A stretch of DNA of 64,000 nucleotides from Marivivens aquimaris (GTDB lineage Bacteria; Pseudomonadota; Alphaproteobacteria; Rhodobacterales; Rhodobacteraceae). Positions 60,964 to 61,269 of the stretch are shown here, piece after piece. A program made the position numbers and the translations under genes. The notes beneath the pieces are model-generated. The model had not been told where the DNA came from. It did not search any database and saw nothing but the letters and a program-made list of their open reading frames with translations. Location: positions 897,001 to 961,000 of the forward strand of contig NZ_JADBGB010000001.1 in NCBI RefSeq assembly GCF_015220045.1. Direction: 5' to 3'. The number at the start of each line of letters is the position of its first letter. Within the stretch, counting starts at the first letter, position 1.

Positions 60964-61086
60964 TTTGATCTCCGAAGCCTGTAACAAGGCCGAAATAGGT
61001 ATGGGCAGACAGCAGGAGACAACCGGCACGCAGAGGAGTTGCGCGACGCGAGCTCCGCCCCCACCGCCGCCCGCGGTTTGACGTAG
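60964..61086 (-). promoter_or_regulatory. gbcA leader between riboswitch and start (possible expression platform)
   Basis: About 120 bases of untranslated leader. TCTCC (61019-61015 on the minus strand) is complementary to the GGAGA ribosome site (60973-60969). A small hairpin GCCT-TGTTAC-AGGC (60990-60977) sits just upstream of that site. No T run is seen, so control of translation is likelier than termination. Confidence 0.45.
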
Positions 61087-61269
61087 TGTCCGGCTGGTTT
61101 CCGGGCTTGGACCTCAGAGTTGTAACGATGCCTTCCCGGGATGTCTCCTCCTCCCAGTGGCGTAATATCGTTACAATACAGTTCCTTACCGTTGCGGGGG
61201 CAGCGCCGGAATTACACCGGCTTCCCAATTATCGACCCCGCAATTTCCATCGCGAGGCCGCACCTGACA
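61087..61269 (-). ncRNA. Cobalamin riboswitch upstream of gbcAB
   Basis: On the minus strand, in order: GGTGC near the start, GGGAAGCCGGTGTAATTCC, GCTGCCCCCGCAACGGTAA, GCCACTGG, CCCGGGAAGGC and the B12 box AAGCCCGGAAACCAGCC (61108-61092). Short closing arms (GACA at 61269-61266, TGTC at 61090-61087 by strand complement) complete the fold. All conserved blocks of the class are present in the right order and spacing. The first gene downstream on that strand is gbcA, 124 bases on. Confidence 0.93.

Follow-up and report, generated by a model that had tools for sequence, protein, structure and literature searches.

A variant cobalamin riboswitch in front of gbcAB-type Rieske demethylase genes, most likely a B12-repressed fallback for B12-dependent demethylation

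Why should a cobalamin riboswitch stand in front of genes for an O2-dependent demethylase that uses no B12? The question is raised by a locus of Marivivens aquimaris, lying within the 64 kb stretch of DNA analysed here (henceforth the window), in which an initial annotation had read all conserved blocks of a cobalamin riboswitch on the minus strand before gbcA, a glycine-betaine demethylase gene. It had further proposed that B12 shuts off GbcAB in favour of a corrinoid-dependent methyltransferase, and knew of no described case of such control. Our search of the open full-text literature agrees, in that no paper among those listed was recognised as describing a cobalamin riboswitch before gbcAB or any other Rieske demethylase. 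As set out below, the riboswitch is real and conserved. Most likely it makes GbcAB a fallback that B12 represses and that stands in for a B12-dependent demethylase; gbcAB is thus a new kind of target, and the cobalamin riboswitch before it is of a distinct variant.

Covariance-model search (cmscan, Rfam 15) bore out the reading of the conserved blocks: a match to RF00174 spanning the full model (positions 1–189; E 8.4e-28; 114 bits, the gathering score being 31.5) was found at 61075..61282 on the minus strand, and this aptamer, of the gbc type described below, is the sole Rfam match at gathering score in the whole window. It scores 157 bits with R1, a covariance model that we built from 21 gbcA-leader riboswitches, the window's own included, and used in place of a regular-expression core scan, which had missed many true sites. 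The interval originally proposed, 60964–61269, does hold riboswitch plus leader but is 13 nt short at the 5' end, as the aptamer begins at 61282. Between aptamer and gbcA lie 111 nt of leader (60964..61074, minus strand), the presumed expression platform. The gbcA homologue (59728..60963, minus strand, ATG at 60963) encodes a Rieske oxygenase subunit of 411 amino acids with PF00848 and PF00355 domains. It is directly downstream, as had been stated, but not the only downstream gene: the start of a gbcB homologue (58652..59731, minus strand; a 359-residue FAD/2Fe-2S reductase subunit with FAD, NAD and 2Fe-2S domains) overlaps its end, so that the riboswitch precedes a two-gene unit. A gene for an RpiR-type regulator (SIS and HTH_6 domain matches; 61364..62272, minus strand) stops some 80 nt short of the riboswitch and is probably a separate unit. 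A scan limited to sigma-70-like promoters, bearing on the internal promoter that the initial annotation had considered, gave no site in the interval from riboswitch to gbcA.

Family membership of the window GbcA is clear from sequence comparison. The protein is homologous over the whole chain to a characterised member of the Group V Rieske oxygenases, which act on quaternary amines (Stc2, CntA and GbcA), and its nearest solved structures are PDB 3n0q (648 bits) and 3vca (618 bits), the alignment with 3vca_A covering residues 9–411. We take 3vca to be the Stc2 of Sinorhizobium meliloti, an enzyme for which a solved structure exists according to the accessible part of PMC10952381. The earlier naming as glycine-betaine demethylase holds at the level of the Rieske/reductase family; at the level of the specific enzyme it is less secure, as the window protein reaches 526 bits with the GbcA equivalog model NF058607 (cut-off 670) and its partner 372 bits with NF058606 (cut-off 500). 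Given the GbcA score and Stc2 as the nearest characterised relative, we infer either glycine betaine or stachydrine as the substrate. The GbcAB systems of Pseudomonas and Chromohalobacter share with the window the pairing of a Rieske oxygenase with an FAD/2Fe-2S reductase, but the window protein falls under the curated cut-off and the riboswitch is absent at all 13 loci whose GbcA exceeds it. In a protein tree made by a quick method (122 rows, after omission of 2 duplicates and 8 distant homologues from 132), the window GbcA and 3vca/Stc2 fall within one 38-row clade (97 SH-aLRT), with the 13 proteins above the GbcA cut-off as the outgroup. Stc2 thus shares the window protein's clade, whereas its nearest rows (L036 and L038) have no riboswitch.

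This tree, with Stc2 inside the clade and NCBIfam-grade GbcA outside it, favours an alternative in which the switch is real and cobalamin-repressed, while the enzyme is an Stc2-type stachydrine (proline betaine) demethylase, paired with a proline-betaine-specific MttB rather than with MtgB; an MttB-family gene of M. aquimaris (L088) that is followed by a gene for an OYE-type flavoprotein would suit it too. However, the riboswitch also precedes proteins that are nearer to curated GbcA (L191 and L194, with 655 and 635 of the 670 bits), which makes glycine betaine the likelier choice if a single substrate is to serve the whole family. We consider the stachydrine alternative possible but rather doubtful.

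The same riboswitch recurs before gbcA in related genomes, as the initial annotation had suggested checking. Among the best 80 of at least 589 relatives obtained by a protein search of named genomes, R1 detected a riboswitch directly upstream of gbcA and on the same strand at 24 loci, of which at least 23 were confirmed by RF00174 coordinates in whole genomes (at two of the 80, L012 and L043, less than 700 nt of upstream sequence was present). A further 49 loci, 20 from relatives and 29 from a phylum sample, yielded 13 riboswitches before gbcA; two of these were repeats (the window itself and the same place as L024) and 11 were new, adding 11 more genomes. The pair was found in Rhodobacterales and Hyphomicrobiales, and in a single genome of the Rhodospirillales. 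No such riboswitch was found at 56 of the 80 loci (again the best 80 of at least 589), including those of the closest window-gbcA homologues among the matches listed. Two apparent additions, L009 and L062, proved to be coordinate coincidences with other contigs, their sequences holding no riboswitch, and a weak partial match at L006 (36.6 bits, 72 nt) was left out of the counts.

Presence is patchy even within the genus. One Marivivens genome (G082), with a GbcA 99% identical to that of the window, has the riboswitch, as does G083, which agrees with L024 (Marivivens niveibacter) in coordinates and scores; G084 and G085 carry a gbcA-like gene of 58% identity without it, and in G080 and G081 no gbcA was found at E 1e-60. 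On the protein tree, where the window gbcA sits among relatives without the riboswitch, presence requires 12 changes, at least 9 of which are forced by well-supported branches. The riboswitches themselves form a single clade (see below), and this combination with a patchy protein tree fits either gene or leader exchange or repeated loss; the histories of the leader and of the coding region seem to be partly separate.

We then asked how far the gbcA-leader riboswitches differ from other members of RF00174. In 200 of 200 bootstrap trees, 36 gbcA-leader riboswitches formed one clade (support 100/100) apart from 11 others (the other two of M. aquimaris, four before nrd genes and five elsewhere), although part of the 36 had been found by a model built from the group itself, which favours the grouping. 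R1 also detects ordinary cobalamin riboswitches, with scores between 58.8 and 102.5 bits for 40 controls (RF00174 sites elsewhere than at gbcA, in most cases the top-scoring site of a genome), and the gap is narrow, with the nrd riboswitch of L010 at 106.3 bits against at least 106.7 for the gbc type.

Individual bases in the core separate the two kinds, and at these the window's riboswitch differs from all 40 controls. Specifically, on the minus strand, position 61190 (within CAACGGT) is G in 36 of 36 gbc-type riboswitches and T in 40 of 40 controls, and its partner 61103 is C in 36 of 36 and A in 40 of 40, so that by the Rfam alignment a U-A pair becomes G-C. Position 61099, in an unpaired joining strand that is presumably J6/3, is A in 36 of 36 and G in 40 of 40. 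Position 61095 is A in all 36, while 38 of the 40 controls have T and 2 have G; its partner 61227 is T in 35 of the 36 and, among the controls, A in 35, T in 3 and C in 2, the alignment giving an A-U to U-A change for this pair. A sixth column, 61184, is less clean, with G in 31 of the 36 and C in all 40 controls. Both base-pair swaps are compensated and adjoin the junction in the Rfam alignment. The window reads GGAAA and CAACGGT where ordinary RF00174 members typically read GGAGA and CAACTGT, and it falls outside the ordinary type on this count. Across the 21 sequences (window included), 28 of 45 pairs changed on both sides and 95.8% of cells were paired; none of 500 shuffled alignments reached the observed covariation, for a structure derived from the same 21-sequence alignment.

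Another 75 RF00174 sites were also checked for the signature, three partial matches being left out; CGCAACGGT occurred in four and CCGGAAACC in two. One site (L238) has both and precedes a second gbcA-gbcB pair with fdhA. Another (L242) has CCGGAAACC and, for the other block, a near-match; it precedes a Rieske oxygenase 33.5% identical to gbcA, whose nearest PDB entries are again 3n0q and 3vca. Three gammaproteobacterial sites (L252, L260 and L269, from Halomonas, Marinomonas and Salinicola) have CGCAACGGT only, that is, the CAACGGT/CCGG swap together with the common GGAGA; they are possibly of an intermediate type, and they mean that the 61190/61103 swap alone is not diagnostic. In the sites examined, the joined signature occurs only before these Rieske genes and fdhA. 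One control (L177) that seemed to hold CCGGAAACC was set aside, the string lying on the strand opposite to its riboswitch.

To approach the association from the RNA side, 385 Alphaproteobacteria were searched for CCCGCAACGGT-N70-100-CCGGAAACC, blind to genes. The string occurred at 8 sites in 7 genomes, M. aquimaris included, while a reversed control string had no match among the matches listed. Seven of the 8 sites lie directly before a gbcA-family gene, the six outside the window being 45 to 57% identical to the window gbcA. The eighth precedes fdhA, for glutathione-independent formaldehyde dehydrogenase (TIGR02819, 711 bits, cut-off 637), in a genome that has a gbcA signature site as well. 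In Labrys sp. WJW a single gbc-type riboswitch is followed by gbcA, gbcB and fdhA (84% identical). As formaldehyde is a co-product of GbcAB (PMC12478193, accessible text), gbcA and fdhA as targets fit one pathway, and an fdhA behind a gbc-type riboswitch points to formaldehyde being oxidised rather than assimilated. At the fdhA site (L196/L272, G713:C1, about 1707500) an ordinary cobalamin riboswitch (135 bits) lies divergent from the gbc-type one.

These data also bear on whether the riboswitch is a relic, or controls an internal RNA only, with gbcA driven from its own promoter: the 12 changes on the protein tree speak for it, implying that loss or exchange is frequent, but the core is intact, its pairing compensatory and the leader short, the riboswitch is kept in a second genome of the genus (96% identical, albeit a near relative) and gbcA homologues of 45 to 57% identity also have the signature in front of them, all of which makes this explanation highly improbable.

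The unpaired joining strand contributes to the choice between adenosylcobalamin (AdoCbl) and methylcobalamin (MeCbl), and the ligand of the variant core may be a different one. According to PMC9600662, the preference can be converted by a few residues of the binding site. We tentatively suggest, while considering it unlikely as a whole, that the gbcA-leader riboswitches are a subclass marked by two compensated swaps and an unpaired G-to-A change, serving quaternary-amine Rieske demethylases and their formaldehyde dehydrogenase, whose pocket, in its changed form, may favour methylcobalamin, or else some other methylated or base-off corrinoid, rather than adenosylcobalamin. If the methyl form were preferred, the riboswitch would sense the pool of methyl-corrinoid in the competing MtgBCD pathway itself. 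A natural variant aptamer with fixed bases would offer a handle on ligand choice in cobalamin riboswitches.

Repression by B12 would make sense if the genome also held a B12-dependent route, and the initial annotation had asked for a search for corrinoid methyltransferases and BHMT-like proteins. A close known system is that of Ruegeria pomeroyi, which demethylates glycine betaine via the cobalamin-dependent MtgB, MtgC and MtgD, as reported in 2025, MtgC and MtgD also serving methionine synthesis in a split methionine synthase (PMC12478193). In the text of that report open to us, GbcAB is treated as a distinct route that belongs to other bacteria and is of restricted occurrence among marine genomes, GbcAB genomes without MtgBCDE are noted, and a riboswitch is mentioned in a reference title only. 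The search of M. aquimaris was successful, with homologues of MtgB, MtgC, MtgD, MtgE and DUF1638 as in R. pomeroyi. There are two MtgB-like proteins of PF06253 (the MttB family), which match PDB 4yyc best (a 'putative trimethylamine methyltransferase'), then 2qne and 9yce, the last deposited as a glycine betaine methyltransferase; both are under the TIGR02369 cut-off (272 and 234 of 525). An MtgC-like corrinoid protein (192 of 370 bits with NCBIfam MtgC) is encoded next to DUF1638 and near an MtgE/Bmt (NF005718, 615 bits, cut-off 338), which might use betaine directly without B12. An MtgD-like methyl-THF:corrinoid methyltransferase (405 bits, cut-off 259) is encoded beside an ORF with a weak MetF-like match (21 bits), and a full-length MetH (2101 bits, cut-off 1497) exists alongside the split set. 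By sequence, then, a putative B12-dependent counterpart is present in the same genome, as for other isozyme pairs. One of the MttB-family genes of that genome (C1:874163-875689; L088, L141) is followed by one for an OYE-type flavoprotein, a class that includes N-methylproline and dimethylglycine demethylases; the two may act together in demethylating proline betaine or glycine betaine.

Across genomes, MttB/MtgB-family genes were found in 36 of 36 with the riboswitch and 25 of 38 without, as well as in 1 of 8 with a curated-grade GbcA (the search covered 26 hand-picked loci of the 56 without riboswitch and 8 of the 13 genomes with curated-grade GbcA). With relatedness uncorrected, the contrast is strong (Mann-Whitney p 6e-11, Fisher p 7e-5); after phylogenetic pairing it is not significant, 3.4 of 7 independent pairs going the same way and 0 the opposite way (median p 0.25). 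MttB-family copy number is a weak proxy, because members act on several substrates, and the 25 of 38 riboswitch-less genomes with such genes mean that the counterpart does not force the switch.

Further indications come from neighbouring genes. MetE and the B12-independent ribonucleotide reductases (NrdDG) are B12-repressed isozymes (PMC2211319, PMC545781, both in part). The window resembles their riboswitches in that an RF00174 aptamer leads a B12-free enzyme while the genome also has the B12-dependent counterpart, and differs in its target, a Rieske demethylase of quaternary amines. In some genomes gbcAB lies near genes for such B12-independent isozymes, which lends further support to a shut-off by B12. 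Class Ib nrd genes were found near gbcAB at four riboswitch loci (L022, L024, L027 and L032). At L024 two riboswitches stand back to back (5379-5564 and 5683-5874), one facing gbcAB and the other the class Ib nrd genes; at L027, with a similar arrangement (5334-5532 and 5671-5871), one faces gbcAB and the other what reads, by eye, like a cobalt-transport operon (CbiM-like and neighbours). A cobalamin riboswitch precedes the nrd genes at L022, and at L032 one lies, by its coordinates, at the fitting nrd place just outside the locus. At L007 and L010 the riboswitch belongs to the nrd genes close to gbcAB, and gbcA lacks one. Rhizobiales bacterium Y(2018) (G070:C32:120860-~132700; L273/L074) has a Rieske gene, metE (cobalamin-independent methionine synthase, 763 bits), nrdA (1360 bits) and gbcA within about 10 kb, along with four cobalamin riboswitches whose places and strands fit these genes; gbcA, metE and nrdA have one each, and two of the four carry the gbc-type joining strand. 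This stretch is an island of B12-independent isozymes.

Taken as a comparative argument, the Mtg homologues and the recurrence before gbcA support the proposed shut-off in favour of a corrinoid-dependent methyltransferase. In our preferred reading, which we consider quite likely, a working OFF-type riboswitch silences the B12-independent GbcAB when cobalamin is plentiful, since MtgBCD would then do the same demethylation. More specifically, at high cobalamin the riboswitch would keep the O2-dependent gbcAB off while MtgB-MtgC-MtgD demethylates, the methyl group staying on tetrahydrofolate with no formaldehyde released; when cobalamin is short, it would permit gbcAB synthesis. This would carry the logic of the metE/metH and nrd isozymes over to osmolyte catabolism. 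The direction, repression by cobalamin, is suggested by analogy with other cobalamin riboswitches. Methionine is not a product of GbcAB.

As to how repression might work, we infer translational control: ligand binding would hide the Shine-Dalgarno sequence in a hairpin and so block translation of gbcA. When the window's leader was folded alone, the Shine-Dalgarno GGAGA of gbcA (60969..60973, minus strand) was paired with a mean probability of 0.72. Just 5' of it lies the hairpin GCCUUGUUACAGGC (60977..60990, minus strand), whose loop GUUAC could, by eye, form five pairs, one of them G-U, with the aptamer loop GUAAU (61215-61211). Docking of an expression-platform loop with the aptamer L5 loop is a described kind of kissing (PMC10907184, in its accessible part), and we suggest an L5-L13 kissing loop here; as the match was not seen in the few other gbcA leaders inspected by eye, it stays a suggestion. 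The hairpins of other gbcA leaders differ from the window's, and in 18 of 20 folded leaders (those in which a simple pattern placed a Shine-Dalgarno, at least one placement, in L074, looking wrong) its paired probability ranged from 0.13 to 0.99, a spread that makes sequestration no general result.

Glycine betaine is a major marine osmolyte. The cobalamin-dependent glycine betaine enzyme reported from a roseobacter (PMC12478193) ties betaine catabolism to B12 supply, and, if the preferred reading is true, the oxygenase would give such bacteria a B12-independent fallback at low B12, with the riboswitch deciding the fate of the methyl group, tetrahydrofolate or formaldehyde. The cobalamin regulon would gain a target class beyond synthesis, uptake, methionine and deoxyribonucleotides.

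The remaining RF00174 sites of the M. aquimaris genome (4.05 Mb, three sites in all) have ordinary targets, one preceding a cobalt-transport operon (DUF4198, CbiM, CbiQ and ABC ATPase) and the other cobW-GNAT-cobN; the DUF4198 gene (L084:6311-7111) is the one directly behind the cobalt-transport riboswitch. Elsewhere in the window, on the minus strand at 50524-56722, ABC transporter genes, with two products that by eye resemble substrate-binding proteins, lie together with a gene for an ANTAR-domain regulator in what looks like a cluster for nitrate uptake.
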